This document shows, one piece after another, positions 3,727 to 43,494 of a stretch of DNA of 64,000 nt. A program made the translations under genes and the position numbers. Source of the stretch: Coniferiporia sulphurascens (lineage: Eukaryota > Basidiomycota > Agaricomycetes > Hymenochaetales > Hymenochaetaceae); assembly GCA_002794785.1 (NCBI GenBank), contig NBBA01000001.1:4836001-4900000 (forward strand). Reading direction: 5' to 3'. The notes beneath the pieces were generated by a model that saw only the letters and a program-made list of their open reading frames with translations, was not told the DNA's origin and searched no databases. How positions within the stretch are numbered: position 1 is the first letter of the stretch; each line of letters starts with the position of its first letter.

Positions 3727-4285
3727 TGTTACAATTTTCCTTTACTTTCCCCTAATGTGCTGACTCACTTCCTCTTTGTCATCATCAGTCAGCGCAACTC
3801 CCCCATTTCTCTGCCTTACTCATCCTTATTCACCTTGCGCCATAAGACGCCATGATGACGCCTCATTGCACCATCATGACGTGCTTTGCTTACTGATCAC
3901 CGTACTTGTATTACCAAGGCCTTCCTTGAGTTTCCATGACCTTCCATAGTCTGGTAAACATACCTAACCAAGTTGCTACAGTAGCAAACACATAGAGTAG
4001 CATATAAGCATGTAACGTCAGTAGCACAAGCCCTAAGCTTGTGCTCTTTGTTCATACAAGCCCATTATCTGCTACCACCAGTCTACTGTGCACTGTTGTG
4101 CCATCAGCCGCTTTGTCGTAACCCGACTCGCTCTAAGAAGCCTACCGCGTCCACATTGTCGATCAGGAAGCCCCGCTGATGATCATCCTCGACTTACGAC
4201 ATCTAGGAAGCCCCGTTGCCGTACCATCAGTTCCGACGATCAAGAAGCCCCGACATCGATCACCACGTAACCGTTGAGCTTAACA
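3727..4285 (+). repeat. Gypsy solo LTR 1
   Basis: This 559-bp LTR runs TGTTACAATT to GAGCTTAACA and is flanked by a perfect 5-bp target duplication, CCACC, at 3722-3726 and 4286-4290. It is therefore a genuine insertion reduced to one LTR by recombination. It contains TATAAG at 4003-4008 and, about 30 nt further, the AAGCTTGTGCT box (4035-4045) that matches the candidate self-primer of the full elements. Confidence 0.95.
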
Positions 4286-6178: not shown

Positions 6179-9100
6179 TCAATGTCCTGTCGCAAGTTTT
6201 CCATCTCCGAGCGCAGTCCTTCATTAAGTAGAGGCTGCAGAGCCATTATCATTTGCTGTAAAGCAGCCCCATCTCCGAGTGGCTGATCACCACTCCTGTG
6301 CTCAACTACGTCTGCACTGCTTTCGGGATTTGTGCTCTCGGACATCTCGCCTCGTTCGTACAAGGTAGAAGTCATGTCAGCACTTGAAGACGTGTGTCCG
6401 GTTTGCCCAATGAGGCTCATTGGTCCCGCGTTACTCAATAGTACCGAGTGCATTGCCATTTTTGCGGCCCTGGAATTAGACAGGTAAGGAGCACCCGTGA
6501 AATGGCCACTAGTTGTGACCCTGGGGCCCAGAAGGAATGGCTCGAATGCCCCATTGGGTGCAGACTGGACTGAGAGCCCTCCTTTTCCATGCCTAGGTAT
6601 CGTGTCTTTGTTTGCGTTGTGCTCACGTTGTCGGCAGAGCGTCTCGTGGTGACGGCGCACACAAAACAACATGCCAAAACCGAATGTGATGAGAACTACA
6701 AGTCCTCTGCCTATGCCGCCACCGACTGCGGCCGCATTTGGCTTGCTTTTCGTTGTGCTTGGGTTGTCCAATGACTTGCCTGGGATGGTGCTCCCATCAT
6801 TGGGCAAGCTAATCGGCTTAGTCGTGATGCTACAAAAGTTACATTATTAAAAATAATTCTGAAGGACGAGTCAGAATAAATTACTCAAGCGCCAGTAATG
6901 AAAATAAGCTGCCTATAGTGGGGCTGGAATGAAGCATCATAAATACAGGTCAAGTAGGTTGTGTACTTGGTGACATTACCTGTTTATGCCTGCGCCCTGT
7001 CCGTTGATCGCTTGTCCGGAAGCTGGGTCGTACACAGTGGTGAAGGGTGTGCTGTTGAGGTTTGCGCTTACGTATCCATGTAGCTGTCCAACCATTAAGT
7101 CACACATAGTGGTATTCATTAACGCTGATGCTGTGAACATAATCGAGTCTGTAAATCGAGTAGACATTAGCCGAGTGAGGCTGTCTAGGGTGATACTATT
7201 TACTTAGTGTCACAACTGATGGGTCTTGGTTACTTAATGGCAGGCCATAATTCGCCTGAGCTAGAGGGAGTGGATTAAGGAGATTGTTAGCTAAGATTCA
7301 GACATGGAATACGCTGGAGGTTCGCACTGGCAATATTGTAGTAAAAACTTGTGAGCACTTGGTATACCTCATCTGGAACAAGATCCAAATTAAGCAGTTT
7401 GTCTGCATATAAATTGTATATCAGCCCGTTTGAGTTCGGAGAGTTGTAAAAAAAGTCGACATGCGTGCTGTCAGCCGCAACTGCATTACTTGTCCACTGC
7501 TCAATATAAGATGTTGCCGTTGTCTGTAGTACAGGTGAGTGGGAAAAAATATGAGAATCTAAGTTTGATAGCAAATTGAGGAGGCCTCACATTAAAGTGC
7601 ACTTGGTCATCATCCATGCCTGCAATCTCCGCAATCTTAGCCATCATGGCAATTCCAATAATCCCCTTTAATGCAGTGTTCATCTGATTGTTATCTGAGA
7701 CACCACTTGTGATACCAAAATCCGCTGAACTCCTTTTATTACAAAACCATATTAAAATTTTATGTTCTGACCATAAGAAGAAATTAGTACATACTGATTT
7801 ATAGGATTCAGAGTATTGGTGATGAGGAAATCTGCCCATTTCCGAAGAAGCGTGTACTGGAAGTGATCAGACATCAGAAAGGAAAACAAGGGAATGATAG
7901 AGTTCATCAAAAGAAGGGAAAGGAAGAAGACCGGAAGACGAGACTAACGTGCTTGGCAAGGAATGTCCCATTTCCGGAGGCTTGAGAGTAGGCCAGCATC
8001 ATGATGAGCATGTTTGCCATCTCTGATTGCTACGTTAGGAGGATCTGAGAGCAACTGAGTAAAGCAGGGAGACGCACCTTCGACTTGGTAGTCATGCACA
8101 TTGTCAATGCCGTCCGCCATTGCATTTGGGTATGCTGTGCCTAACGGTATTACTCGTTAGAGCTAGCATAATCGGGTGCACCACAGAATAAAAAGGGAGA
8201 AACAAAACCTGCGTACCTATGTTCATGGCGGCATATGTCTGCGTATATGCATCCGAGTCCTGGTACTCAAGCAATGGCGTGAGCAAGTAACCACCGAGCT
8301 CAGGATTCAGGTACAGTAGCGCTGGGAATGCTGCATAGAGTACATCAACTGTATTCACACTTTGTTGGACCGTCTTTCCACTGTGTCGACAGTCAGTTCA
8401 GTCTTGTTTAGAGCACAACCTAGGTATTAACGGAAGAAAGAGGAAGGAGGACGTACTTATTGTCAGAGCCGGCGCTACCAATGTTCTTCATGAACACCTT
8501 GACATCTGAAAAGTTCCATCCACCACCAATGTTACTGGCAAGTGTGATGTCCAGTGTACCCATCACCTGGCTTACACCCAGTGCGAGGAGATCTGCATAG
8601 TTGTTTGAGAGCGCCGCACCTGCCGCTTTTAGCTGCTCATCAAATGTTTCCGCTGCAGATTGTGCTTGTGTGAAGTCATCTAAAAAGAATTCAACCTGTT
8701 GACCGATAAACAAATGATAGAGCAGTGAGTAAGATTCAAGGATGTTTTTACTCAGTAACACAGACTAAAGAGGTGAGAAAAAAGAGCTGATGAATGTACA
8801 GCGCTACTGCCATTGCCAAAGGCAGACATAAAATATGGACTGCGCATCTGGGTCATGCCGTCCGTCAAAAGGTATTGAACCGATGGGTCACACACAACAC
8901 CAAGTGCCCAGACCGCAGGCTCCGGTGTATCTGTGATATTGCCCCAGTCGACCATAATGCTCATGACGGGCCTGTCGTTGCTGCAGATTTATATACAAGT
9001 CAGCTACCATGTCCAGGCTTTGCATCAGCACAGTGAGGAAAAATCTGAAAGACATACAGTCCCACCACAGCTGGAGGTGTGTCAGCCGCGTTGTTGAGTG

Positions 9101-10156
9101 TCAGGCTTGCATTCGCTGCTATCCCACGGTTCTCCTTATACCCAGAGATCGACCATGATGTCATCGTCCTGTCGATCTACTCAATCAGCCATATTTCATA
9201 TCATAAGTAATTGTTTTCTTCTGCGTAAGATGTTCTGACCTTCTTGAAGGAATAATATTCCATTCCATCCTGTGGGAAGTTATTAACTTCTGTAAACGCT
9301 TGCTGCGTCTGAAGCTCCATCTCCAATATGACATAGTCATCTTCGGTATCATCCGGAGTCCATTGGATGACCTCTGTCCCACTACCAGCGATAAAATCTG
9401 CCAATGATTTGAGTGGTTAATTGTTATAACCGGCATCATAGAGCTTCAGCACACCTCCTGTTACATCAGAGTACATACACAGATTGTGCGGGTTTCCATC
9501 CAGAGATGCCGCCGACATGTAGAAATACGAAAAGGGGAGCGATTGCCGAACAAGATCTGTGGGCTACATTTATCTTCAATTTCGATTTCCGCTGATGACT
9601 CTTCAAAAGCAAGACGTACCTCAATTGGATTGAGGAATGTCGCATTTATCTGCATTTTCCCTGTGGTCAAGACGAAGGTGGTGCTCATTGGTGTAAACTC
9701 GACCGCAGTTTGGTTTGCCTGGATTATGTTGCCACTGGAATAGTTTCCAAGGATCCAATAAAACTGCCCGTCAACTAATGCAGACGCGTACCAACTTGTG
9801 ACCTAGATGAAGACATAGGGTCATCAGCAATCCTAATGGAAGGAAACTAGAGAGATCTAAAATGGCCAGTCATCATGCCGGTGTGCGCTTTCATGCTGCC
9901 CACACACAATTCAGGTTGCAAAGATGATAGTAACGCAACACACCTGACTTTGAAACCATGAACTCGGCCAAATATTGGTTATAGGAAGAGGATTGTTTCC
10001 TTGTGGGATCCAAGTATTGAGATATGGAGAGTGCACAGCAAGTGGAAGTGCGGGAGGATTGAATGGGGTAATTGACCACGAGCTTGGTCCATTCTGTGCA
10101 GTAACAAAGACAGCAGTGACGAAGAGCAATGCTAGAATGCGCAGAAAATGGTGCAT
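6133..10156 (-). CDS. GtaA-like glutaminase family protein, membrane-anchored, copy 1 (LTR-derived C-terminus)
   Basis: Multi-exon gene starting at the ATG at 10156 with a secretion signal (MHHFLRILALLFVTAVF). Exons in order carry the N-terminal part (PLAVHSPYLNTWIPQG), a Trp/Tyr-rich domain, the helical region near 8500-8700, LNPELGGYLL with LLEYQDSD (about 8250), DYQVE (8090), MLIMMLAYSQASGNG (7990), ALKGIIGIAMMAKIAEIAG (7650) and IYNLYADKLL (7400). This is the DUF4965/DUF1793 pattern of fungal glutaminase A relatives. A transmembrane segment (about 6680-6750) and a basic cytosolic tail follow, unlike secreted Aspergillus GtaA. I saw no stop in the exons I followed. The last residues are replaced by LTR sequence. 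Family assignment is firm; the substrate is inferred. Confidence 0.8.
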
Positions 10157-16090: not shown

Positions 16091-17900
16091 CTGTGTACAT
16101 GTCCACAGGCGATTCCTACTCGATAATTCCTCAGGCCTCCCGAAGCTTGATGCCGCCGAGTGACACGGGGCCCACGAGCATCATTGCTCAGGTCGGATAC
16201 ATGCCTTGAGGCAACAACAGACTTTCTCTCCTGAATCAGCGCAACGGAGCCGGTGGCGTTGATAGGGCACTGCATGTTGGGAACGAGAGGGTCCTAAGCT
16301 CGGTGGATAGGTGTGGAGGAGAGAGCAGTAACTGCGACCTGCCGTCCAGAGAAGGCACAGCTCCCCGGCAGGTGATGCTCGCTAAGCAATCGTTGTTAAA
16401 CGAAGAGCTGTGCTCGGAAGTGGAAAATCTATGCCAGGACCTCGAGCGGATACAGTGGGAGAGGCAGGTCGCCCTCGAGGAAGCACCACCATTGTATTCA
16501 GATCACACCTGATTTGCCGTATTTATGCATTGGTGCAGAACCGCTTCTCAAAATGTCCCTACTATTACTCCAATGGTATTTGTTGAAGCATGACTATACA
16601 GTATTAATACCTGATAATTACTTTTGAGACTTCATAATTCAGGATTCAGGAGGGAAATCCTTTCCAAAGTCGCATAAGTGGCTGACTATAGCCTAATGAT
16701 GGACTAATGATATTCTCTTGTGGCCATTCGTTCCTACACATGAGATACAGTATCATCAAGATTCAGAGTTGACGGTCGACTAGGGGCCGACTTCCACACA
16801 AATTAGGCAGGGTCAGAATACAATGGTGGCACCTCCGGAGAGATCCTCTCCTGCCGTAACCGCTCGATGTCCTGCCGCAAGTTTTCCACCTCCGAGCACA
16901 GTCCTTCATTGACTAGAGGCTGCAGAGCCATTATCACTTGCTGTAAAGCAGCCCCATCTCGGAGTGGCCGATCACCACTGCTTTCGGACATTGTGCTCTC
17001 GGACATCTCGCCTCATTCGTATGAGGTGGAAGTCCTGTCAGTACTCGAAGGCGTGTGTCCAGCTTGCCCAACGAAGCCCATTGGCCCCGCATTACTTGGT
17101 AGTACCAAGTGCATTGCCATTTGCGTGGCCTTGGAATTAGACGGGTAAGGGGCACCCGCGAAATGGCCGTTGGTTGTGACCCTGGCGCCCAGAAGGAATG
17201 GCTCGACCACCCCATCGGGTGCAGACCGGAAGGAGGACCTTTCCTTGCCATACCTGGGCATCGTACTTTTGTTCATGTCACGCTCACGTTGCCAGCGGAG
17301 TGCCTTGCACCGACGGCGCACACAAAAGAATATGCTAAAGCCGAATGCGCCGAGAACTACAAGTCTGCCGCCTATGCCACTGCCGACTGCTGCTGCATTT
17401 GACCTGTTTTTCGCTGTGCTTGGATTGCTTGATGGATTGCCTGGGATGGTGCTCCCGTCATTAGGCAAGCTGATCGGTTTGGTTGTAATGCTACAGAAGT
17501 TACAGTATGAGCAGGAATCCCAAAAGACGAATCAGAGTAAGTTACTTAAGCGCCAGTAATGAAAATAAGCTGCCTATAGTGGGGCTGGAATGAAGTATTA
17601 TTAATACAGGTCAGGTAGATTGTGTACTTGGTGACATTACCTGTTTATGCCTGCGCCCTGTCCATTTATCGCTTGTCCGGAAGTTGGGTCATACACAGCG
17701 GTAAAGGGTGTACTGTTGAGGTTTGCGCTTACATATCCATGCAGCTGTCCAACCATTAAGTCACACATAGTGGTATTCATTAACGCTGATGCTGTGAACA
17801 TAATCGAGTCTGTAAATCGAGTAGACATTAGCCGAGTGAGGCTGTCTAGGACAAGCTACTTACTTAATGTCACAACTGATGGGTCTTGGTTACTTAATGG

Positions 17901-18460
17901 TGTTAAGCTCAATGGTTACGCAGTGATCGATGTTGGGGCTTCCTGATCGTTGGGACTGGTGGTTACGGCAACGGGGCTTCCTAGATGTCGTAAGTCGAAG
18001 GTGATTGTCGGTGGGGCTTCCTGATCGACAATGTGGACGCGAGATGCTTCTTAGTGGAGTCGGGTTATGACGAAGTGACTAATGGCCAGGTGGCACACAG
18101 TAGACTGGTGGTAGCAGATAATGGGCTTGTATGAACAAAGAGCACAAGCTTAGGGCTTGTGCTACTGAAGTTACATGCTTATATGCTACTCTATGTGTTT
18201 GTTACTGTAGCGACTTGGTTAGGTGTGTTTACCAGACTATGGAAGGTCATGGAAACGCAAGGAAGGCCTTGGTAATACAAGTACGGTGATCAGTAAGCAA
18301 AGCATGTCATGATGGTGTAATAAGGCATCATCATGGCGTCTTATGGTGCAAGGTAAATAAGGATGAGTAAGACAGAGAAATAGGGGAGTTGCACTGACTG
18401 ATGATGACGAAGGGGAAGTGAGTCAGCGCAGTAAGGTGAAAGTAAAGGAAAATTGTAACA
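17901..18460 (-). repeat. 3' LTR of element A
   Basis: The 560-bp LTR shares private variants with 30575-31134, for example GTGGAGTCGGGTTATGACG. The first 200 bp of the pair differ at only about three sites, all CpG versus TpG/CpA. The polypurine tract, AAATGGGAGGCAA on the element strand, lies directly next to it (18461-18473). Confidence 0.95.
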
Positions 18461-18936
18461 TTGCCTCCCATTTAGGATCGACAAGTCACTGAATTGTCAA
18501 AAGAAAAATAATAAAGATGAGTCAAAAAGGTAAAAAAGAAAATCCAGATGTATCAAGATGCCAGCCTAGCAGGTCTTTAAGTGTAATGCTAGGTTCACCG
18601 CAGAGTTTGTTACTGCGCTCTTTGGTACCTAATCCAGGTCTTTCACCAATATTAATGGTATGATGTCCAAAGATGGTGAAAAAGCGGAAAAAAGATGCAA
18701 AAAGAATCCCTAACCTGGATTGCAAGTCATAGTAGCCTATAGGGCCAAGTAAAGGCCAATAAACGATAAGAAAAAGGCAAGCTGCCAATCAAGGACAATA
18801 ACAAGCAGGGAAATGGGCATAAAATGGACGAAACAGGAAAACACACTAGTGGGCCTTTTAAGGTCATACCCAGGAGTAGTAGTTTAGGGTCGTTGCAGAC
18901 ACATGCTAGTTTTCTGTCATTGCAGACTTGGACTTC
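18461..18936 (-). other. Structured noncoding region of element A, between ORF3 and 3' LTR
   Basis: This 476-bp stretch has no conserved ORF but keeps several inverted repeats. One hairpin has arms CCTAGCA (18565-18571) and TGCTAGG (18587-18593) around a 15-nt loop that is identical to that of element B while the arms differ. Further out, AATCCAGGT pairs with ACCTGGATT and TTTCACC with GGTGAAA. It may serve packaging, dimerisation, reverse transcription or RNA stability; the role is not known. Confidence 0.6.
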
Positions 18937-19643
18937 TCAGTTAGAGTGGTTGTTGTTGTTTGACCCCATATCGACGTCGTCGAGGTTGATCCCTGCAGCA
19001 ATGTCATCCATGTATGACTGGAGAAGGACTCGGGCCCCTAGATCCGAGAGGCGTACCATTCGTCTTCCATTAGTTGGAGGGGATGGCAGTCGATTCTCAT
19101 CTGTGTTTGGCTCTTCCTGTCTGTGCTGTGGACATTCACCAGGAGGATGTCAGGGTGCCGCCTTTTTGCACCAAGGACAGATGTACTGTATGCAGTAGGT
19201 GGTGAGGTGTGCGGGTGACAGACACACGGAGCAGTGTGTGCGTGAGGATGACAAGGACGATGACTGGGATGGAGGTGGAATTGGGACTGGAAGTGGCTCC
19301 GTTTGTGTTGCGGAGTTGCGATGAGTGACCGTAGGCGAAGATGGAACTGTTGGAACGAGTGGAGGAGCTGGTGTGGGACGGTAGAGGTGCGCCTGTGGAT
19401 GAAGAGGAATGAGTACTTGGTGGATACTTTCTTCCTCTAGAGTCTCGTAGTCTGTGTTGCATAGTAGTCGGAGGTTGTCGACCAGATTACTTAGCCGGGA
19501 GTCCAGCATCTCCGTGATCTCCTGGGCGTGCCAGGCCAGGCGTTGCATGTCCTCCAGAGTCCGTAGACGCTGATGCATCCTGTTGACTTGGCGCGCTCTC
19601 GGGTGGGTGGATATGAGTCGGTTGACGTCCGTATCCAGGTCGG
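18937..19643 (-). pseudogene. ORF3 of element A, 3' half
   Basis: The reading frame matches the C-terminal half of ORF3 in element B: a helical segment (HAQEITEMLDSRLSNL), a proline-rich linker, and the Cys/His cluster (CSVCLSPAHLTTYC and CPWCKK). It is cut at 19643 by the nested element and carries a TGA at 19150 after KKAAP. The last residues (DDVDMGSNNNN) are conserved beyond that stop. Confidence 0.8.
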
Positions 19644-20205
19644 TGTTAAGCTCAACGGTTACGCGGTGATCGACGTCGGGGCTTCCTGATCGTCGGGACT
19701 GATGATATGGCAACGGGGCTTCCTAGATGTTGTAAGTCGAGGGATGATCGTCATCGGGGCTTCCTGATCGACGAGATAGATGTGGTAAGCTTCTTATGGC
19801 GAGTCGGGTTACGACAAAGCGACTAATGGCCTAGGGGCACACAGTAGACTGGTGGTAGCAGATAATGGGCTTGTATGAACAAAGAGCACAAGCTTAGGGC
19901 TTGTGCTACTGAAGTTACATGCTTATATGCTACTCTATGTGTTTGCTACTGTAGCGACTTGGGTAGGTGTGTTTACCAGACTTATGGAAGGTCATGGAAA
20001 CTCAAGGATCGCCTTGGTAATACAAGTACGGTGATCAGTAAGCAAAGCATGTCATGATGATGTGGTAAGGCGTCATCATGGTGTCTTATGGCGCAAGGCG
20101 AAATAAGGATGAGTAAGGTAACAAAATGGGGGAGTTGCGCTGACTGATGATGATGAAGAGGAAGTGAGTCAGCGCAATAGTAGAGATTAAAGGAAAATTG
20201 TAACA
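19644..20205 (-). repeat. 3' LTR of element B
   Basis: The 562-bp LTR is bordered by the polypurine tract at 20206-20218 (TTGCCTCCCATTT on plus). Compared with 26716-27266, the first part differs only at CpG/TpG-type sites. Confidence 0.95.
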
Positions 20206-20680
20206 TTGCCTCCCATTTAGGATTGACAAGTCACCGAATTGTCAACAATAAAATAAAAAAAATATAAGAGTGAGTGGGAATGAAAAATCCAAGTGTATCA
20301 ATAAGCCGGCCAGACAGGTCTTTAAGTGTAATGTCTGGTTCACCGCAGAGTTTGTTACCGCGCTCTTTGGTACCTAATCCAGGTCTTTCACCAATATTAA
20401 TGGTATGATGTCAAAAGACAGTGAAAAAGCAGAAAATAGATGCAAAAAGAATCCCTAACCTGGATTGCGAGTCATATGAGCCTATAGGGCCAGATAAAGG
20501 CCAATAAACGATAAGGAAAAGGCAAGCTGCCAACAAAGACGATAACAAGCAGAGAAATGGGCATAAAAAAAATATAAAGAGAAAACGCACTAGTGGGCCT
20601 TTTAAGGTCATACCCAGGAGTAGTAGTTTAGGGTTATTGCGGACGCACGCTAGTTTACTGTCATTGCGGACTAGGATCCC
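20206..20680 (-). other. Structured noncoding region of element B, between ORF3 and 3' LTR
   Basis: This 475-bp counterpart of 18461-18936 carries the same hairpin with changed arms, CCAGACA (20310-20316) and TGTCTGG (20332-20338), and an identical 15-nt loop. The second inverted repeat, AATCCAGGT with ACCTGGATT, is also kept. Confidence 0.6.
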
Positions 20681-21989
20681 TTAGTTGGAGTGATCGTTGT
20701 TGTTAGACCCCATATCGACATCGTCCCGGTTGATACCTGCCGTAATGTCGTCCATGTAGGATTGAAGTAAGACGTGTGCCCCTTGATCAGAGAGACGTAC
20801 CATGCGCCTTTCACTTGATGCGTTAGGGGGAAATGGGGTCCGGTTCTCGTCAGGAGTGGTCGTTTGCTCTTGTCCGTGTTGTGGACATTCGCCCGGAGGG
20901 TGTTGAGGAGCCGCTTTCTTGCACCAAGGACATGTGTACTGTACACAGTACGTGGTGAGGTGTGCTGGTGATAGGCATGCGGAGCATTGAGTGCGCGAGG
21001 ATGACGAGGATGATTCCTGGGATGGGGGTGGGACTGGTAGCGGTTCAGTCTGGGTGGCTGAGTTGTGACGAGTGACCACAGGTGAGGAGGGAGCCGTTGG
21101 GACGAGGGGTGGAGCCGGTGTTGGGCGGTACAGATGCGCCTGAGGATGAAGAGGAATGAGTACTTGGTGTATACCTTCTTCCTCTAGTGACTCATAGTCC
21201 GTGTTTCGTAGTAACCTGAGGTCGTCGACGAGGTTACTGAGGCGGGAGTCCAGCATTTCCGTGATCTCCTGGGCATGCCATGCCAGGCGTTGCATGTCCT
21301 CCACTGTCCGGAGTCGTTGTCGCATCCTGGTGACCTGGCGAGCTCACGGGTGGGATTCGAGAAGTCGGTTGATGTCCACTTCTAGGTCCGGGGCTGCTAG
21401 CACGTGTTGGAGGATGGTATGCAGGAGGAGGGGTGCGGTGTGTCGGCTCGAGTCCTGCGTCAGGTATCGGCATCGTGTTGCCAGGTGGTGGCGACGACGG
21501 TACTCTGCACTGGTTCCGCTGTTCCTGGAGCTGGGCTGCGAGTGCGAGTTCATGGTAAATCACCGCTTGGTCGTGTAGATTGGCGAGGTGAAGGAGTAGG
21601 TTGACGGAGGGTGGTTCGGATTGACTTAGCTGGTTCTCGAGTCCTTCGATCTCGAACTCAATTTCAGTGAGGTCCGAGGGTTGGATGAAGTCTTGTGGGA
21701 AAGTGTGTCGTAGTTGTTCGATGACGTCCAGGCAGGTGGGTGTGGATCTGCGAGGCTGGTATTCCCGGTGGCGGACCTCGATAGGGGGGTTTTGGATCGG
21801 CAAGGTTGGAGAGAGAGGTCGGCGATTTGCGACAGTGGGATAGCGTATGCGAGATGTGGAGTGTGGGGTTCGGTGGTTGCGGTGGCTAATGGTTGTGGTG
21901 ATTGCGCAGACAAAGACGAATAGACCCATGGGTATAGCAATGGCGAGGTACCAGAGGTGTTCGTTGTTGGTTATGTAGGCGGTGGGCAT
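20681..21989 (-). pseudogene. ORF3 of element B: membrane segment, helical region, Cys/His cluster
   Basis: ORF3 begins 27 nt after the pol stop. A hydrophobic segment (YLAIAIPMGLFVFVCAITT) lies at residues 14-32 and a basic patch follows. Then come acidic and helical stretches, a Pro/Ser-rich linker, and a C-terminal cluster C-x2-C-x4-H-x4-C-x4-C-x2-C. The N-terminal frame (to 21234) and C-terminal frame (from about 21553) differ, so there is a frameshift near 21500. A TGA stands at about 21342 where A has arginine. Intact it would be about 430 residues. It is not a recognised envelope and no protein family was recognised; a nucleic-acid-binding or membrane-linked accessory role is only inference. 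Confidence 0.75.
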
Positions 21990-22016: not shown

Positions 22017-25000
22017 CTACGTGATGTTTTTGAGGTTTTTATACGTTTCTAGGATGTCTGAAGCATGTGAAAAATCTTTTTCTGCTAGCCATTGATTTTC
22101 GGAGGACGGGTATCCGCTCCACTTAACTAGGAAACGCCGTCTGTTTCCGGCTCCTTTGTGTGAGACGATTGCCTCGATTTCGTATTCCTGCTGACCTTCT
22201 ATCAGGTCAGGGGGTGGTTGACTGAATGGGGGTCCGTGTGCATCGGTCTCCGAATACGCCGAAAGAAGCGAGGTGTGAAAAACAGGGTGAATGCGCCATG
22301 CCTCGGGTAATTTGAGGCGATAGTTCAGGGGTGATAGTACCTGAACTATGGGAAATGGTCCCTCCCGTTTAGGTGACAATTTGCGGGATCGGTTGGGAAA
22401 ATGCAAATTTGTGGCTTCTAACCAGACCTTATCTCCAAGTTTGAATGGTTTGAAGCCTTGTGCTCCAAAACGTGCCATATGGGCCTGGGCTAGGTCATGG
22501 GTGGCAAGCACTTCTTTTCTGATTGATGAAAGAAGGCGCAGGCGCTGTGAGAGAGACGGGAGATCTGTGTCTTCTATTACCGTGGGAATGGGTATCGGGT
22601 TATATCCTAACATGACGGTGAACGGCGAAGTCTTGGTAACTGAATGGGTCTGGATGTTGTGTGAGAATTCCAGGTCCGTGAGTGAGTCAGCCCAAGAATG
22701 AGGTGATGTGCCGCAATAAATGCGCAGATAGGCTTCTACTTCCTGATTGGCCCGTTCAGTTTGTCCGTTGGTTTGAGGGTGGTACGCTGTTGACAGTTTA
22801 GACTTAATGCCGAGGCGTTTGCATATCGTCTGGAAAACCTGTGATGCAAATTGCGGTCCTCTATCCGATATGATCCGTTTGGGCAATCCGAAGCGCTTGT
22901 AGACGTTATCATGGTAGCATTTTGCCATTCCGAGTGCGTCAATTGTCTTGTGACAGGGGATAAGGACGATTCCTTTCGAAGAGTTGTGGTCTACGACTAC
23001 CATGATGGAGTCGTATCCATTTGATGTAGGTAGGTCTGTGATGAAGTCCATCGATATCGATTGAAATGGAAGCATTGATGCGTCCGCAGGAATCGGGAGC
23101 ATGGGCGGTTTAGTCGGATGAGTGTTGATTTTCATCTGTTGGCATGCCACGCATCCTTTGACGTAGTTCCCTACGAAGACCATTAACCCTGGCCACCAAT
23201 AGTGTTGTCGCACTAGTTGGGAGGTTTTGAATACTCCTGGGTGGCCGAATGATGGAAGGTCGTGAAACATTTGTAGTATTTCTCGTTTGATTTCCGCGTT
23301 GTCTGGTATATAGATTCGTTTTTGGTACCGGAGAAGGCCGGAATCTATGGTCCAGTCATCGAGTGAGAATCGGAATGGAGATGGGATTTTTAGTGCCCGT
23401 GCATCCTGGATTGTTTTCGCAAACGAATCCCCTTCTTGGGCATCTCGAATGCGGTTCTGGAGGTCCGTATTAATGGTTCCGATAAACAGTGTTTCAGGTA
23501 GCATGATACATTCTTCTAGTGGTTCTTCGCCATGATCAGGGCGTCTGGACAGTGCGTCAGCGCCAGGAATGGATTTTCCTGGTCGGTGTGTGATTACGCA
23601 GTTGAACCGGGACAAGAATAGGTTCCATCGCGATTGTCTCGGAGTTAGTCGGCATTCCGATCTAAAGTATGATAGGTTTTTGTGATCACACCAGATCGTG
23701 GTTGTATGCGGGTTGCCGAGAAGGTAATGACGCCATGCTTCGAGGCCTCGTATTATTCCCAAAAGTTCCCTGTCATATACTTCGTAACGTTGTTGGGCTG
23801 GTCCGAATGTTTCCGAGATGTAACCGCAAGGTTGTAGATCACCGTTGGAGTTTGCCTGATAGAGTACTGCTCCGGACGCTACCTTTGATGCGTCTGTTTC
23901 AAGGATAAACGGTTTGGTGGGGTCGGGTACCAGTAGGGCCGGTTTGTCCAGGAAAAGCGTTTTGAGTTTCGTAAATGCTTGATCTCGTTCCGCTGTCCAT
24001 TTCCATTGTTCGTTGGTACGTGTGAGTTCATTAAGAGGGTATACAATATCCGAGAAGTTGGGGATGAATCATCTGTAATAATTACAGAATCCCATAAAGC
24101 TTCAAAGCTGTTTAACCGTATGTGGGGTAGGCCAATCGGCAATTCCTGCTAGTTTGACGGGGTCCATGTGTATATTGTCTGGGGTGATGATCATTCCCAG
24201 AAATTCAACACATTGTACTCCGAATAGACATTTCTCTGGTTTGCAGTAGAGGTCATTGGCTGCACATAAGTCGAGCATGCGACACATGCGTTTGTGAAGC
24301 TCTTCCATGGAGTTGGCGGGAATAAGTACGTCGTCCATGTAGATCAGAGTTCCATCTTCCAGGATTGCGAAGCGAAAAGTATCGTCCATGAACGCTTGGA
24401 ATGTGGCCGGTGAATTGCATAAACCAAAAAACATGACCGTTGGTTCGAACAGTCCTCTTGGTGTTTTAAACGCGGCTTTCCGTTGGTCGCTGTTTTTAAT
24501 TCGAATATTGTTGTATCCTGAGCAGAGGTCGAGTTTCATAAAGTATTTGGCCCCTTTGAGTTTGTCCATGAGATCACTGATTAGCGGTAGCGGGTAAGCG
24601 TTTTTAATGGTTCCTTCATTAAGTGCCCGATAATCTTGACATCCTCGAAGGCTCGTATCTTTCTTCCCGACAAAGAAGAAGGGGGATGCCATGGGTGATT
24701 TGGATGGCCGGATATATCCTTTTTGCAAGTTTTCGTCTAGGAATTCGTCGAGTGCTGCCAACTCTTTGGGTGCTAGTGGGTATACCTTACAGTCGTGTGG
24801 TATGAAATCCGGTTTGAGGTCAATCGCATGATCATAAGATCTCGAGATTGGAAATCGTTCCGCTGATTTTTTGCGAAAGATATCGAGGTACCAGTGGTAT
24901 TCCGGGGGAATCATCTGTTCCACGGGTTTTGTTTCTTTAACCTGTTCCTGGGCGAGCGAGGTAGCCGTGGTGACTTTTGCGATAGCGAGAGTGCCTTTTT

Positions 25001-25406
25001 GCCAATTTATAACCGGGTTGTGGGTTTTTAACCATGGTAGGCCAAGGATTACGTCTTCCTTGCCTAGTGACGTTACGAGTAACTTTAAAGGGAGTGATTT
25101 CCCTTCGATACGAACTAATCTCCATGTATATTGAGTGATGGTTCCGTGCTCGTTAGTGGATCCGTCCGCATTAAGAACTGTAATGGGGCGAGTAAGGTTT
25201 CGTGTAGGTATGCGGTGTTTGATCACGAATTTGGTATCGATGAACTGGCCTTCCGCGCCTGAGTTGATGAGTGCATTGGTGGGGACGGTTTTGTCAAAAA
25301 CAATCATAGAAATTGGGATCTTCATTGCGGGGAGTGAAGGATCGGAATTTACAATTGGAGACATAGTAACAGGAAGACTTAACGTCCATCTAAGCTTCCT
25401 CTTTAA
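22017..25406 (-). pseudogene. Pol of element B: protease, RT, RNase H, integrase, chromodomain
   Basis: The pol frame opens at 25406 in the -1 frame at the gag stop. Protease has NALINSGAEGQF, with Asn where A has Asp, so the catalytic residue is changed. RT has LRGCQDYRALNEG and IYMDDVL. RNase H includes the ETDAS motif. Integrase shows the HHCC zinc region (CVACQQ), D at SMDFITD, D at ISDRGPQF and E at NGQTERANQE (about 22750-23300). A GPF module and a chromodomain (FLVKWSGYPSSENQWL, about 22090-22140) end the protein. Nonsense codons lie near 24070 and 24105, one at a CGA-to-TGA site. The chromodomain places it among chromoviruses. Confidence 0.93.
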
Positions 25407-26702: not shown

Positions 26703-26713
26703 AAGCTTGTGCT
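26703..26713 (-). promoter_or_regulatory. Candidate self-primer binding site, element B
   Basis: AGCACAAGCTT lies 2 nt after the 5' LTR and is perfectly complementary to the AAGCTTGTGCT box in the LTR. No TGG, the usual start of a tRNA-type primer site, follows the LTR. Confidence 0.65.
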
Positions 26714-26715
26714 AG

Positions 26716-27266
26716 TGTTAAGCTCAATGGTTACGCGGTGATCGATGTCGGGGCTTCCTGATCGTCGGGACTGATGATACGGCAATGGGGCTTCCTAGAT
26801 GTTGTAAGTCGAGGGATGATCGTCATCGGGGCTTCCTGATCGACGAGATAGATGTGGTAAGCTTCTTATGGCGAGTCGGGTTACGACAAAGCGACTAATG
26901 GCCTAGGGGCACACAGTAGACTGGTGGTAGCAGATAATGGGCTTGTATGAACAAAGAGCACAAGCTTAGGGCTTGTGCTACTGAAGTTACATGCTTATAT
27001 GCTACTCTATATGTTTGCTACTGTAGCAACTTGGTTAGGTGTGTTTACCAGACTTATGGAAACTCAAGGATTGCCTTGGTAATACAAGTACGGTGATCAG
27101 TAAGCAAAGCACGTCATGATGGTGCAATAAGGCGTCATCATGGCGTCTTATGGCGCAAGGTGAATAAGGATGAGTAAGGCAGAGAAATGGGGGAGTTGCG
27201 CTGACTGATGATGACAAAGAGGAAGTGAGTCAGCGCATTAGGGGAAAGTAAAGGAAAATTGTAACA
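26716..27266 (-). repeat. 5' LTR of element B
   Basis: The 551-bp LTR pairs with 19644-20205. Its right flank is the pol of element A, which begins without a target duplication matching the left side. Confidence 0.95.
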
Positions 27267-29266
27267 TGAATAGTCTTTGCAAACGAATCCCCTTCTTGGG
27301 CTTCTTGGATGCGGTACTGGAGATCCGTGTTGATTGTCCCAATGAATAGGGTTTCCGGTAGCATGATGCGTTCTTCAAGTGGTTCTTCACCGTGATCAGG
27401 TCGCCTAGATAGTGTGTCTGCGCCAGGAATGGATTTTCCTGGGCGATGTGTGATTACGCAGTTGAACCGGGATAGAAAAAGGTTCCATTGTGATTGTCTT
27501 GGGGTTAGACGACATTCCGATCTGAAGTACAACAGATTTTTGTGGTCGCACCAAATCGTGGTTGTATGCGGGTTGCCAAGGAGGTAGTGACGCCATGCTT
27601 CGAGGCCCCGTATTATTCCTAGAAGTTCTCTATCGTAGACCTTGTAGCGTTGTTGAGCTGGTCCAAACGTTTCCGAGATATAGCCACATGGTTGTAAATC
27701 GCCATTTGAGTTTGCCTGGTATAGTACCGCTCCTGATGCCACTTTGGATGCGTCCGTTTCGAGTATAAACGGTTTGGTGGGGTCTGGTACGAGTAGGGCC
27801 GGTTTGTCGAGGAAGAGCGTTTTGAGTTTCGTAAACGCTTGATCCCGTTCAGGAGTCCATTTCCACTGTTCGTTTGTGCAGGTGAGTTCGTTAAGTGGAT
27901 ATACTATATCCGAAAAGCTGGGGATGAAACATCTGTAATAATTACAGAAACCCATGAAGCTTCGGAGTTGTTTGACAGTGTGTGGGGTGGGCCAATCGGC
28001 AATTCCAGCGAGTTTGACAGGGTCCATGTGTATGTTGTCTGGGGTGATGATCATACCCAAAAATTCGACGCGTTGTACTCCAAATATGCATTTTTCCGGT
28101 TTGCAATAAAGGTCGTTGGCTGCACAGATATCAAGTACGCGGCACGTGTGCTGGTAAAGTTCTTCCATTGAGTTGGCAGGAATGAGTACATCGTCCATGT
28201 AGATCAGGGTTCCGTCTTCTAGAATTGTGAAGCGGAACGTATCATCCATGAAAGCCTGGAATGTGGCGGGCGAATTGCATAGTCCGAAGAACATAACAGT
28301 TGGTTCGAAAAGTCCATGCGGAGTTTTAAAAGCGGCTTTCCATTGATCGCCATTTTTTATCCAAATGTTATTGTAACCTGATCGGAGGTCCAGTTTCGTA
28401 AAGTATTTGGCCCCTTTAAGTTTGTCCATGAGGTCACTGATTAAAGGTAACGGGTACGCGTTTTTAATGGTTCCTTCATTAAGTGCACAATAATCTTGGC
28501 ATCCTCGAAGGCTTGTATCTTTCTTCCCGACAAAGAAGAAAGGAGAAGCCATTGGTGATTTGGATGGGCGAATGTAGCCTTTGCGTAGGTTTTCGTCTAG
28601 GAATTCATCAAGTGCTGCCAGTTCTTTAGGTGCCAGTGGGTAAACCTTACAGTCACGTGGTACAAAATCGGGTTTGAGATCGATGGCATGGTCATAAGGT
28701 CTTGAGATTGGGAATTGTTCTGCCGATTTTTTGCAAAAAATGTCCAGATACCGATGGTATTCAGGAGGAATGATTTGTTCCACAGGTTTAATCTCTTTAA
28801 CCTGTTCCTGAGCGAGTGAGGTAGCAGTAGTGACTTTTGCGATAGCGAGAGTGCCTTTTTGCCAATTAATAACCGGGTTGTGGTTCTTTAACCATGGTAG
28901 GCCAAGGATAATGTCTTCCTTGCCTAGCGAAGTTACGAGTAACTTTAGGGAAGGTGATTTCCCTTTGATGCAAGCCAATTGCCAAGTGTATTTGGTGATC
29001 ATTCCGTGTTCGTTGGTGGATCCATCCACATTAAGGACCATAATGGGATGAGCAAGTTTTCGCGTTGGTATGCGATGCTTGATGACGAATTTCGCATTGA
29101 TGAACTGGCCTTCGGCACCAGAATCGATGAGTGCATTGGTGGGGACGGTTTGGTCATACACAATCATAGAAATTGGGATCTTCATTGCAGGGAGTGAAGG
29201 ATCGGAATTTACAATTGCAGACATGGTAACAGGAAGACTTAACGTCCATCTAAGCTTCCTCTTCAA
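27267..29266 (-). pseudogene. Pol of element A: protease, RT and RNase H, integrase lost
   Basis: A long open frame, uninterrupted for about 670 codons. Protease has ALIDSGAEGQFI and LGLPWLKNHNPVINW. RT has FFVGKKDTSLRG, SGYNNI and IYMDDVL. RNase H has FILETDASKVASGAVL and YDRELLGII. The frame ends where element B begins: after EGDSFAKTI it runs a few codons into LTR sequence and stops at 27230. Integrase, chromodomain and the first half of ORF3 are gone, so A cannot integrate by itself. Entry into the frame requires the -1 slip at 29266. Confidence 0.92.
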
Positions 29267-30574: not shown

Positions 30575-31134
30575 TGTTAAGCTCAATGGTTACGCAGTGA
30601 TCGACGTCGGGGCTTCCTGATCGTCGGGACTGGTGGTTACGGCAACGGGGCTTCCTAGATGTCGTAAGTCGAAGGTGATTGTCGGTGGGGCTTCCTGATC
30701 GACAATGTGGACGCGAGATGCTTCTTAGTGGAGTCGGGTTATGACGAAGTGACTAATGGCCAGGTGGCACACAGTAGACTGGTGGTAGCAGATAATGGGC
30801 TTGTATGAACAAAGAGCACAAGCTTAGGGCTTGTGCTACTGAAGTTACATGCTTATATGCTACTCTATGTGTTTGTTACTGTAGCGACTTGGTTAGGTGT
30901 GTTTACCAGACTATGGAAGGTCATGGAAACCCAAGGAAGGCCTTGGTAATACAAGTACGGTGATCAGTAAGCAAAGCATGTCATGATGGTGCAATAAGGT
31001 GTCATCATGGCGTCTTATGGCATAAGGAGAGTAAGGATGAGTAAGGCAGAGAAATGGGGGAGTTGCGCTGACTGATGATGACAAAGGGGAAGTGAGTCAG
31101 CACAGTAAGGTGAAAGTAAAGGAAAATTGTAACA
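30575..31134 (-). repeat. 5' LTR of element A
   Basis: The 560-bp LTR pairs with 17901-18460. Its right flank, AATGG (31135-31139), repeats the left flank of the outer element. Confidence 0.95.
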
Positions 31135-32528: not shown

Positions 32529-34204
32529 GCAGGCAGAGATGCACCTTCGACTTGGTAGTCATGCGCGTTGTCAATACCGTCCGCCGTCGCGTTTGGATAT
32601 GCTGTTCCTAACAGTATCTCTTGTTAGAGCCAGTATATAGGGTGCACCCCTGGACTAAAAAAGAAGAAAACAAAAATCGCTTACTGATGTTCATGGCGGC
32701 ATATGATTGTGTATACGTGTCCGAGTCCTGATACTCAAGCAGTGGCGCGAGCAAGTAACCACCGAGCTCCGGATTCAAGTACAGCAGAGCCGGGAATGCC
32801 GCATATAGAACATCAACTGTATTCACACTTTGTTGGACTGCCTTTCCGCTGTGCCAACAATCGGATCAGTCTCGTTTAAAGCATGACCTAGGTATTAACG
32901 GAAGAAAGAGGAAGAAGGACATACTTATTGTCAGAACTGACACTACCAATGTTCTTCATGAACACCTTGACATCTGAAAAGTTCCATGTACCACCAATGT
33001 TACTGGTGAGTGTAATGTCCAGCGTACCCATCACCTGGCTCACACCCAGAGTAAGGAGATCCGCATAGTTGTCTGAGAGCATCGTGCCTGCCGATTTTAG
33101 CTGCTCATCAAACGTTTCCGCCGCAGATTGTGCTTGTGTAAAGTCATCTAAAAAGAATTTCACCTGTTGACCATTTAACAAATGACAGAGCAGCAAGTAA
33201 AATTGAAGAAAGTTTTCACTTAGTAACACAGACTGAAGAGGCAAGAAAAAGAGCCAGTGAACGTACAGCGCTACTGACGTTGCTAAACGCAGACATAAAA
33301 TACAGACTGCGCATCTGAGTTGTACCGTCTGTCAAAAGGTATTGAACCGATGGGTCACGCACAACACCGAGTGCCCAGACTGCAGGCTCCGGTGTATCCG
33401 TGACATTGCCCCAGTCGACCATCATGCTCATGATGGGTCTATTGTTGCTGCAGATATATACACAAGTCAGCTACCCATGTCCAGAATTCACATGGATATG
33501 GTGGGAAAATCGGAAAAGACATACAGCCCCACCACAGCTGGGGGTGTGTCAGCTGCGTTGTTGAGTGTCAGACTCGCATTCGCTGCTATATCACGATTCA
33601 TCTCATACCCAGAGATCGACCATGATGTTGTCGTCCCATCGATCTACTCAATCGGCCATATTTCATATCGTAAGTAATTTTTTCTTTCATGAAAGATGTC
33701 CTGACCTTCTTAAGGGAATAATATTCCGTTCCATCCTGTGGGAAGTTATTGATCTCTGTGAAGGCTTGCTGCATCTGAAGTTGCATCTGCAATATGACAT
33801 AGTCATCTCTGGTATCAACCGGAGTCCATTGGACCATCTCTGTCTCAGTACCAGTGAGAAAATCTGATCAATTTTTAATCTATCAGTCTCTATAATCGGC
33901 ATCTTAAAAGTTAGCATACCTCCTGTTAAGTCAGAGTACATTTGTAGACTATGCGGATTTCCGTCCAGAGATACCACTGACATGTAGAAATATGAAAAAG
34001 GGAGCGATTGGCAGATGAGATCTGCGGGCTGCATATATGAGCGAATCAATATCATTGCAATGATCTTCTTGATTTCCTATGATGACCCTTCAAAAGCAGT
34101 ACACACCTCAATTGGATTGAGGAAGGTCGCATTTATCTGCATTTCCCCTGTGGTCAAGACAAAAGTAGTGCTCGTTGGCGTAAACACGACTGCAGTCTGG
34201 TTTG

Positions 34205-39498: not shown

Positions 39499-42400
39499 TC
39501 AAGCAGGGTCAGAATACAACGGCGGCGCCTCCCTCTCCTGCTGTAACCGCTCGATGTCCCGCCGCAAGTTTTCCATCTCCGAGCGCACTTCCTCATTGAG
39601 AAGAGGCCGCAGAGCCATCACCACCTGCTGTAAAGCAGTTCCATCTCCTGGTGACTGGTTAATACTCCTCCGCCTAACTACGTCTGCGTTCTCGGGCACC
39701 TCGCCATGTTGGGCCAATGCGGGAGGCCTGTCGGCATCTGAAGACGTAGTGAGACCTGTTGACCACGCGCTACTCGGTAGTACCGGGGGCACTGTCGTCT
39801 GCGCGGCCTTGGATTTAGACGGGTAAGTGGTATTCACAAAATGGCCATTGGTTGTGACCCTAGCGCCCAGAAGGAATGGATCAACCGCCCCATCGGGTAC
39901 AGACCGGACAGAGGGCCCCCCCTTGCCATACCCAGTTGTCGTGCTTTGGTCGCGTTGCTGGCGGAGCGGCTCACGCCGACGGCGTACACAAAAGAACATG
40001 CCAAGGCCGAATGTGATGAGAGCTACAAGTCTGCCGCCTATGCCACCCCCGACCGCTGCTGCATTTGGCTTTGATGGTTTATCTGGAATGGTGCTCCCAT
40101 CATCGGGAAAGCTAATCGGTTTGGCCGTAACGCTACAGAAGTTACAGCATGAGCAGGAATCCCAAAAGACGAACCGGAGATAATTACTTAAGCGCAAGTA
40201 ATGAAAATAAGCTGCCTATAGTGGGGCTGGAATGAAGCACCATTAATATAATTCAAATAGGTTGTGTACTTGCTGACATTACCTATTTATGCCCGAACCC
40301 CGTCCGTTGATCGTTTGTCCGGTAGTCGGGTCGTACACAACAGTAAAGGGTGTACTGTTGAAGTTTGCGCTTGCGTATCCATGCAGCTGTCCAACCATTA
40401 AGTCACGCGTCGTGGTGTCTGTCAACGCCGATGCTGTGAACATAATCGAGTCTGTAAACCGAGTAAACATCAGGACGAGTGAGGTCATTGGAATGGGTTA
40501 ATGTCATGTACTTAATGTTGCAACTGATGGGTCTTGATTACTTAATGGCAGACCGTAATTCGCCTGTTCTAGGAATTAAGGAAATTGTTAGCCAAGGTTC
40601 AGACACGAAAGCCGCTGGAAGTTCGCACTGGCAATATTAGAGTAAAAACTTGTAAGCACTTGATATACCTTGTCCGGAACGAGGTCCAAGTTAAGCAGTT
40701 TGTCCGCATATAAATTGTACATCAGCCCGTTTGAGTTCGGAGTGTTGTAAAAAAAGTCGACATGCATGCCGTCCGCCGCAACCGCATTACTTGTCCACTG
40801 CTCAACATAAGATGTTGCCATTGTCTGCAGTACAGGTGAGTGGAGAAGAATATATGTGAGAATGTAATTTTGATAGCAAATTGAGGAAATCTCACATTAA
40901 AGTGCGCTTGATCATCGTCCACGCCTGCAATCTCGGCAATCTTAGCCATTGCGGCAATTCCAATGATCCCTTTCAGTGCAGTGTTCGTCTGATTGTTATC
41001 CGAGAGACCGTTCGTGATACCAAAATCTGCTGAACTCCTTTCATTACCAAATCATGTTAAAAAACCTTACACTTTGACCATAAAAAAAGAAAGCAGTACT
41101 TACTGATTTATAGGATTCAGGGTATTGGTAACAAGGAAATTTGCCCAATTTCGAAGAAGCGTGTACTGAAGTAATTAGATATTAGAAAAGAAAAGCGGGA
41201 ATGCGATGAGTTCATCAAAGGAGGGGAGGGGAAGAAGACCAGAAGACAAGACTAACGTGCTTAGCAAGGAATGTTCCATTTCCAGAGGCTTGAGAGTAGG
41301 CTAGCGTCATGATGAGCATATTCACGGTCTCTGCTGTTACGTTAAGAGAGTCTAAAAGCAGCTGAGCGAGGCAGGCAGAGACGCACCTTCGACTTGGTAG
41401 TCATGCGTGTTGTTAACACCGTCCGCCGTCGCGTTTGGATATGCCGTGCCTAACAGTATTACTCATAAGAGCTAGCATATAGGGTACGCCATGGAACCAA
41501 AAGGGAGAAACAAAAACCGCGTACCTATGTTCATGGCGGCGTAACTCCGCGTATACGCGTCCGAGTCCTGGTACTCAAGCAATGGCGCGAGCAAATGACC
41601 GCCAAGCTCCGGATTTAGGTACAGCAGAGCCGGGAATGCCGTGTATAGTACGTCAACTGTATTCACGCTTTGTCGGACTGTCTTTCCACTGTGTCGACAG
41701 TTCAGTCTTGTTTAGAGCACAGCCTAGGTATTAACGGAAGGAGGAAAAAGCACGTACTTATTGTCAGACCCAACACTACCAATGTTCTTCATGAACACCT
41801 TAACGTCTGAAAAGTTCCATCCACCACCAAAGTTACTGGCGAGTGTGATGTCCAGTGTACCCATCACTTGGCTCACACCCAGAGCAAGGAGATCCGCATA
41901 GTTGTCTGAGAGCGTCGTGCCTGCCGATTTTAGCTGCTCATTAAACGTTTCCGCCGCAGATTGTGCTCGTGCGAAGTCGTCTAAAAAGAATTTCACCTGT
42001 TGACCATTTAACAAACGACAGAGCAGCGAGTAAAATTGAAGAAAATTTTCACTTAATAACACAGACAGAAGAGGCGAGAAAAAGAGCTGGTGAACGTACA
42101 GTGTTACTGACGTTGCTAAACGCAGACATAAAATACGGACTGCGCATCTGAGTCGTACCATCCGTCAAAAGGTATTGAACCGATGGGTCACGCACAACAC
42201 CGAGTGCCCAGACTGCAGGCTCCGGTGTATCCGTGACATTGCCCCAGTCAACCATCATGCTCATGACGGGACTGTTGTTGCCACAGATATATGCACAAGT
42301 CAGTCATCACGTCTAGGCTTTGCATGGATACAGCGAGAGAAAATCGGAAAAGACATACAGTCCCAACGAATACACTGTAGGTGTGTCAGCCGCGTTGTCG

Positions 42401-43494
42401 AGCGTCAGACCCGCACTCGTCGCTATTCCACAGTTCGTCTCATACCCAGAGATCGACCATGATGTCGTCGTCCCGTCGATCTACTCAATCAGCCATATTT
42501 CATATTATAAGTAATTGTTTTCTTCCGTGTAAGATGTTCTGACCTTCTTGAAGGAATAATATTCCGTTCCATCCTGTGGGAAGTTATTAACTTCTGTAAA
42601 CGCTTGCTGCGTTTGAAGTTGCATCTGCAATATGACATAGTCATCTTTGGTATCATCCGGAGTCCATTGGACAATCTCTAAGTCAATATCGCCGAGAAAA
42701 CCTGTTAAAATTTAAATCTATCAATTTTTATAACCGGCATCATACAAGTTCCGCATACCTCCTGCTAAGTCAGAGTACATTTGTAGACTATGCGGATTTC
42801 CGTCCAGAGATACCGCTGACATGTAGAAATACGAAAAAGGGAGCGATTGGCAGATGAGATCTGCGGGCTGCATATATGAGCGAATCAATATCATTGCAAT
42901 GATCTTCTTGATTTCCTATGATGACCCTTCAAAAGCAGTACGCACCTCAATCGGATTGAGGAAGGTTGCGTTTATCTGCATTTTCCCTGCGGTCAAGACA
43001 AAAGTAGTGCTCGTTGGCGTAAACTCGACCGCAGTCTGGTTTGCCTGAGTTATGTTGGCACTTAATATGTCCCCCATTTCCCCCATGATCCGATATGCCT
43101 GCCCGTCAACCAATACAGACATGTACCAATATATGGTCTGGATGAAGACATCAAGCAATCAGCAATTCTATTGGGAGAAAACTGGAAAAATATGAAATGG
43201 AGAGTCCGAGTCGTTATGCCGGTGCGGCGCGCATTCACGACGCCCTTATCGAAATGCAAATCCGATGGAAACGCAATGCACTTGGTATTGAAGTCATGAC
43301 ATCGGATAATTACTAGTTATTGGGAAAGAACCATTTCCTTGTGGGAGCCAGGAATTGAGGTAAGGTGAGCACACAGCAAGTGGAAGCGCGGGAGGATTGA
43401 ATGGAGTGGTTGTCCATGAGCTTGGTCCACTTTGTGCAGCGACAAAGAGAACAGAGACGGAGAGAAACGCTATTGCGCATAGGACGTGGCGCAT
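39499..43494 (-). pseudogene. GtaA-like gene, copy 4, complete length with one nonsense codon
   Basis: This is the only array copy free of insertions. It starts at 43494 (MRHVLCAIAFLSVSVLF signal peptide) and ends at 39499 with PPLYSDPA. All family exons are in place: YRIMGEMGD (43090), SMMVDWGNV (42250), YLNPELGGHLL (41620), AKIAEIAG (40930), YNLYADKLLNL (40700), the TRFTDSIMFTASAL exon (40440), transmembrane segment (about 40000-40060) and tail. A TGA at 43294-43296 stands where copies 1-3 encode Trp in SWF. Unless an upstream splice donor (GTAATT just before) removes it, only a short peptide is made. I therefore call it a pseudogene with reserve. Confidence 0.7.

Follow-up and report, generated by a model that had tools for sequence, protein, structure and literature searches.

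The 3' noncoding region of a Ty3/gypsy chromovirus in Coniferiporia sulphurascens contains a five-helix domain of 181 nt, and selection on its RNA structure, acting on the sense strand, is strongly supported by the pairing of its helices, by a wobble bias and by tree-preserving controls. Two copies of the element, W1 and W2, lie in the window, i.e. the whole stretch of 64,000 nucleotides that was analysed. The initial annotation had pointed out in both copies a hairpin with an identical loop and with arms that differ at three neighbouring pairs, every difference being compensated. We found this hairpin as described, with arms CCTAGCA and TGCTAGG around the loop GGTCTTTAAGTGTAA at 18565-18593 in W1, and arms CCAGACA and TGTCTGG around the same loop at 20310-20338 in W2; the three differing pairs are adjacent and each is compensated. 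Because the genes of the element are all on the minus strand of the window, the RNA hairpin is read from that strand, and its loop in the sense RNA is UUACACUUAAAGACC. The hairpin, here called P4, belongs to a domain in which a 9-bp helix, P1, closes the 181 nt and encloses P2 with P2b, P3 and P4:

20286..20466, minus strand: whole RNA domain of W2, 181 nt
20458-20466/20286-20294 (P1), 20431-20433/20378-20380 (P2b), 20419-20428/20384-20393 (P2), 20363-20366/20347-20350 (P3), minus strand: helices of W2, besides P4
20310..20338, minus strand: P4 of W2, a 7-bp stem (arms 20310-20316 and 20332-20338) with a 15-nt loop (20317-20331)
20367..20377, minus strand: segment joining P2b and P3 in W2, UUAGGUACCAA in sense, nearly invariant
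18541..18721, minus strand: whole RNA domain of W1
18713-18721/18541-18549 (P1), 18686-18688/18633-18635 (P2b), 18674-18683/18639-18648 (P2), 18618-18621/18602-18605 (P3), minus strand: helices of W1, besides P4
18565..18593, minus strand: P4 of W1 (arms 18565-18571 and 18587-18593, loop 18572-18586)

Pairing and covariation across the copies of one genome

The genome searched comprised 39.3 Mb in 31 contigs, with the window at G000:C1:4836001-4900000. The P4 loop was found at 47 exact and 8 one-mismatch sites, compared with 4 and 3, or 7 together, for a reversed-pattern control; within the window it occurs at the W1 and W2 sites alone, even when up to three substitutions are allowed. One of these 55 loop sites, L085, lies outside the element family and was left out of all alignments. 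With C28 added, a copy found by similarity that has two loop mismatches, the alignment holds 55 copies including W1 and W2. L066, which is missing the 5' part of the domain, was left out of the pair counts, parsimony, simulations, strand and arm counts, leaving 54 copies. These copies (54-55) all come from one genome, and most were found via the loop. In order to check ascertainment, we ran a similarity search with 401 bp, loop included, which returned 44 places, 40 of them spanning the loop; in these 40 the loop was exact in 35, had one mismatch in 4 and two mismatches in 1, at 83-92% identity to the query (the query itself, at 100%, is counted in). A 22-nt word from the P2 loop occurred at 52 sites in the genome (control 1), of which 51 were already in the copy set, and the remaining one (C1:3298845) has no other family motif worth the name. 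This overlap indicates that the sample is near-complete for copies having either loop.

Across the 54 copies, the five helices taken as given comprise 1782 pair cells, of which 1754 were standard and 103 were changed on both sides, whereas sliding the partners by one to three columns left 575-875 standard cells and 3-21 two-sided changes. Every helix was well paired, with standard cells numbering 469/486 in P1, 534/540 in P2, 162/162 in P2b, 216/216 in P3 and 373/378 in P4, where 34 were changed on both sides. The arms of P1 are 163 nt apart and those of P2 25 nt, and both pair consistently. The initial annotation had also named a nested inverted repeat, AATCCAGGT/ACCTGGATT. Both words are in the window, but across 54 copies their centre pair is standard in only 21, and none of their pairs shows a two-sided change. 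AATCCAGGT is instead the 5' arm of P1, and its better partner is ACYTGGATT, past P4 (469/486 cells, 5 two-sided changes); the proposed partner ACCTGGATT was thus rejected on the pair counts over 54 copies.

We compared these counts with two versions of simulations, 200 each, in which substitutions were redealt on a tree made from flanking sequence beyond the domain. Double-change cells reached at most 59 when paired columns were used and at most 67 when all domain columns were used, against the 103 observed, and the paired fraction of each of the five helices was above the highest of the 200 simulations in both versions. Double-change counts alone were less uniform: P2 was above the simulated range in both versions, P1 and P2b were within it, P3 with 20 such cells was within it as well (simulated maxima 38 and 26), and the 34 cells of P4 were within the range of one of the two controls (maximum 39). 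The trees ignore recombination between copies.

Significant covariation had been the check that the initial annotation put forward for the hairpin. Our own all-pairs test, in the style of R-scape, used an APC-corrected G statistic and 60 tree-preserving null alignments over 589 columns, or 171,405 pairs. The sole pair to pass at E < 0.1 was 383-398 in P3, paired in 55 of 55 copies (A-U 35, G-C 20). Pairs of P4 ranked 2, 6, 15 and 68 of 171,405, with per-pair p values of at most 3.4e-6, 1e-4, 9e-4 and 4e-3, respectively, and the pairs ranked 2 and 6 had E of about 0.6 or more. Hence P4 failed the strictest covariation test, missing E < 0.1 over all pairs, but was significant when the test was limited to the named helices, in its 7-pair helix-limited form. 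In agreement with a folded domain, RNAalifold gave an energy of -50.9 for the sense alignment and -41.5 for the antisense, compared with -6.3 (sd 3.1) for 40 column-shuffles. Its covariation term for the sense alignment was 4.6 versus 1.0 (sd 0.5) for the shuffles, where the sign of the term is left without interpretation. A search of Rfam with 17850-21400 gave no family matches up to E 5.

The unpaired parts vary in a different way. The P4 loop, by which most copies were found, is the stretch of 15 columns with the lowest variation, at 0.60 substitutions per column, compared with 3.39 in paired columns and 17.8 in the sequence after P1. The segment joining P2b and P3, which was not used to choose copies, has 0.73 versus the same 3.39.

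Steps of change and strand of selection

P4 is fully Watson-Crick in 46 of 54 copies, with six different arm pairs. The fully paired sense arms are CCUAGCA (35 copies), CCAGACA (3), CCAGGCA (3), CCUGGCA (2), AUUAGUA/UACUAAU (2) and CUUGGCA (1). The initial annotation had held that arms changing without compensation in other copies would speak against the hairpin. Compensation prevailed in these 46 copies, but not in seven, where one side alone had changed (three to G-U, four to A-C), nor in one more, L086, which has yet another arm pair with U-U adjoining the loop. By parsimony, P4 underwent 18 double changes versus 5 pairing losses on the flank tree, and 13 versus 5 on the domain's own tree. 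On the flank tree, all helices taken together gave 47 double changes, 101 single changes with pairing kept and 24 pairing losses; the domain tree gave 29, 79 and 18, respectively. Ties in these reconstructions favour paired states.

Two explanations of the compensated arms had been left open from the beginning, namely selection on RNA structure and template-switch correction of a quasi-palindrome. In the latter, one arm is copied from the other, so that both change jointly without any function. The difference between W1 and W2 has just this form, three neighbouring pairs altered and all compensated, and the step from U-A to A-U in the middle of CCWGG, which needs two transversions, would be accounted for in the same manner. 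However, the intermediate arm pairs CCUGGCA, CCAGGCA and CUUGGCA were all found, indicating that the changes proceeded pair by pair. Template switching also fits poorly with an invariant loop and with the consistent pairing of P1 and P2 across 163 and 25 nt.

The wobble pairs identify the strand. In all helices we counted 198 G-U and 12 A-C cells, a G-U share of 0.943, compared with a mean of 0.66 and a maximum of 0.745 in 200 simulations that keep the kinds of substitution. An excess beyond the simulations points to selection on the sense-strand RNA, i.e. the minus strand of the window, and an excess on one strand is not expected from a DNA process such as template switching. The RNAalifold energies, lower for the sense than for the antisense alignment, point the same way. 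P2 and P1 contribute most of the wobble bias; P4 alone is strand-neutral, with 3 G-U and 4 A-C. This neutrality of P4 would also agree with selection at the DNA level, in which the inverted repeats, being DNA palindromes as well, would serve the double-stranded element, or its cDNA, as sites of binding or extrusion. Against it stand the preference for G-U over A-C across all helices and the layout of a multi-helix domain with arms far apart. Both explanations were rejected on the pair counts, the strand bias and the arm variants: we regard selection on DNA as extremely unlikely, and template switching, faced with stepwise changes, distant P1 arms and strand bias, as having just as slight a chance. 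Selection on the RNA structure is the explanation that stood.

The element, its third gene and a sister family

In W2 the order in sense is 5' LTR, gag, pol, third gene, a noncoding stretch of 475 nt and 3' LTR. The parts needed below are as follows:

26716..27266, minus strand: 5' LTR of W2
22017..25364 (24102-25364 and 22017-23762), minus strand: pol open frames of W2, with protease, RT, RNase H, integrase, a Tf2-type SH3 domain (Tf2-1-like) and a chromodomain
20681..21989, minus strand: third gene, between pol and the RNA domain, in frames a and b
21234-21989, minus strand: frame a of the third gene, with a hydrophobic stretch near its start
20681-21325, minus strand: frame b of the third gene as listed (selected frame from near 21553), with two zinc knuckles
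20206..20680, minus strand: 3' noncoding region of W2 from stop codon to LTR, 475 nt, with the domain, P5 and the polypurine tract
20223..20245, minus strand: P5 hairpin, UUGACAA/UUGUCAA, adjoining the polypurine tract
20206..20218, minus strand: polypurine tract, AAATGGGAGGCAA in sense, directly 5' of the 3' LTR
19644..20205, minus strand: 3' LTR of W2, 562 nt
17901..18460, minus strand: 3' LTR of W1, whose other LTR is near 30575-31134

The word AAATGGGAGGCAA is presumably the polypurine tract, as its position in an LTR element would lead one to expect. In sense order the domain ends at 20286 and the 3' LTR starts at 20205, with about 70 nt from the domain to the tract. P5 is paired in 48 to 55 of 55 copies per position, with zero double changes. 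The two LTRs are identical at 527 of 553 aligned bases in W2 and at 543 of 564 in W1. W2 lies inside W1, and since its flanks (19630-19650 and 27258-27280) lack an obvious 5-bp duplication and W1 lacks the integrase part, the arrangement is a rearrangement rather than a simple insertion. Seven more LTRs of the family, with ends at 4276, 6169, 14589, 16081, 31979, 34745 and 37811, have neither primer site nor domain and are probably solo LTRs. Another repeat family has three copies in the window (8171-9446, 32639-33912 and 41479-42750; 78-92% alike).

Past both 5' LTRs of the window, in sense, stands CT and then AGCACAAGCTT (26703-26713 in W2), an 11-nt complement of AAGCTTGTGCT within the LTR (26957-26967 in W2). 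This complementarity suggests self-priming, as in Tj1 and Tf1, for which it has been described (PMC4600332), and the element is probably self-primed, with the primer as a prediction from sequence. The LTRs also have a perfect hairpin of 9 bp, AGCACAAGC/GCTTGTGCT (26957-26979 and in the other LTRs), which includes the presumed self-primer. Like the Tf1/Tj1-type self-primed chromoviruses of fission yeasts, the element combines a Tf2-type SH3 domain and a chromodomain in its integrase with self-primer complementarity, the comparison of the primer being with Tj1 (PMC4600332). Unlike elements of this type, it has a third gene and a structured 3' UTR. Ty3 belongs to the same superfamily but is primed by the initiator tRNA, on a bipartite primer site that involves both ends, whereas here both 5' LTRs in the window are trailed by the 11 nt complementary to the LTR, a candidate self-primer. 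The 3' UTR reported for Ty3 has 214 nt, a length counted differently from the 475 nt that separate stop codon and LTR in the present element.

In 17 copies of the third gene, the variable codon position moves out of frame a and into frame b near 21553-21524, where all 17 have an ATG. The switch would be accounted for by a +1 frameshift or by initiation within the gene; for an intron, no convincing conserved splice sites were seen among the GT/AG words listed. L093, L095, L107 and L112 were left out of the 20 loci in this frame and splice analysis. The knuckles of frame b are CSACLSPAHLTTYC and CPWCKKAAPQHPPGEC (20931-20986 of the window, minus strand). CX2CX4HX4C was present in 45 of 55 copies and CX2CX6HX4C in 43 of 55, and a protein search with frame b gave zero matches at E 0.001. 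The Gag open frame also has a CX2CX4HX4C motif, seen by eye.

Among the best 120 of 4309 matches to the integrase half of pol, the nearest named relatives were from Phellinidium pouzarii and, at 76-84% identity with partial coverage, Coniferiporia weirii, which points to a hymenochaetoid fungus as the most likely host. A sister family, with 65-69% integrase identity, shares the GGGAGG... polypurine motif and has a hairpin beside the tract in the same place as P5, with a different stem. Its third gene has a double zinc knuckle, 38-47% identical over 36-47 aa in the three regions tested. The P4 loop was absent from the three sister copies scanned with up to three edits. Seven aligned copies of the sister 3' UTR gave a folding energy of -45.5 versus -28.1 (sd 4.3) for 100 shuffles, with an equal value for the antisense (-45.1) and 9 double-change cells in all; L124 and L129, into which an LTR is inserted, were left out of this fold test and included in the stem comparison. 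The sister 3' UTR is probably folded too, on weaker evidence than in the main family, and a homologous domain was rejected given the loop missing from the three copies scanned, the strand-equal fold and the few double changes. In the main family itself, L120 (G000:C7:1318500-1321200) is a member from which the RNA domain is missing together with part of the third gene, and L116 is broken within the P2 loop.

Candidate roles of the domain

Covariation of the paired letters beside a 15-nt loop that hardly varies suggests that some factor recognises the RNA. The loop found no partner elsewhere in W2, where its best duplex was -9.8 while 40 shuffled loops averaged -11.4 (scanned at steps 5 and 10); this leaves a protein or another RNA as the binder. 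Kissing contacts between loops were dropped after inspection by eye.

We consider it rather probable, judging from sequence, that the domain acts in cis, bound by a protein, in the export or packaging of the genomic RNA. Within the 3' UTR of this fungal chromovirus, P4 would be one arm of the fold; the stems would be scaffolds whose own sequence is unimportant, and the invariant P4 loop a putative protein-binding site. The binder would most likely be one of the element's own zinc-knuckle proteins, Gag or the product of the third gene, or else a Mex67/NXF1-type export factor of the host, and the bound protein would mark full-length RNA for export and/or packaging. Dependence on Mex67 has been reported for Ty1 RNA (PMC3856414). 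Such a role fits a domain placed after the last gene and before the polypurine tract, and a third gene with two CCHC-type knuckles, which the sister family has as well. It is weakened by the fact that the sister family has the zinc-knuckle gene and, by sequence, not the domain, and by L120, which is without the domain.

A narrower form of this proposal, in which the double-knuckle protein of the third gene binds the P4 loop and directs export or packaging of its own RNA, would amount to a system like RRE/Rev that had arisen outside retroviruses; we regard it as unlikely. A like protein with another 3' fold, as in the sister family, is what would be expected if protein and RNA coevolve. In RRE/Rev, and in Cer1, a Ty3/gypsy element whose CERV is reported to be required for export of genomic RNA (PMC10309623), an extra element-encoded protein likewise accompanies genomic RNA export, an analogy limited here to the co-occurrence of a zinc-knuckle gene with the adjacent fold, so that the protein is a candidate partner only. 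The CTE of type D retroviruses offers a second parallel, as a structured cis RNA that precedes the 3' LTR at the 3' genome end of an LTR element; according to PMC3856414 and PMC12789967, it lies near the 3' LTR and binds TAP/NXF1, which is homologous to yeast Mex67. Unlike the CTE, the present domain has its conservation in a 15-nt terminal loop and no match in Rfam, and binding of an export factor is a candidate property.

Two further roles were weighed against export or packaging. An element of the 3' end acting on translation or RNA stability, for instance in expressing the frame-switching third gene, would suit a domain directly 3' of that gene, with its frame change near 21553-21524. However, base complementarity between the loop and the 5' part did not exceed chance and nothing links the domain with the frame switch, so that we hold this to be rather unlikely. 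Quite improbable, too, is a part in reverse transcription, through positioning, strand transfer or a second portion of the primer site such as Ty3 has in its 3' UTR (PMC4974528). It would draw on the distance of about 70 nt to the polypurine tract and on the tract-side hairpin (P5) that both families have, but the primer looks self-derived, 11 nt past the 5' LTR being complementary to the LTR, and a self-primer needs no tRNA capture at the 3' end.

Structured cis elements of retroelement RNA are already known; what is new is one in a fungal chromovirus. A literature search, which lay largely outside subscription journals, returned no report of such a domain, and the cis signals for export and packaging in Ty3/gypsy elements are described as poorly defined, even in Ty3 (PMC11381356). 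The genome's own copies form a natural mutational series, with a compact domain, a defined strand and loop, and many working stem variants, which makes the question directly testable with an RNA of 181 nt. It would moreover demonstrate that the dead transposon copies of a single genome can reveal selection at the RNA level.

Apart from the helices, the joining segment at 20367-20377 contains the palindrome GGUACC in 47 of 54 copies and once GAUAUC, which is palindromic too; the site is a possible contact of an RNA dimer.
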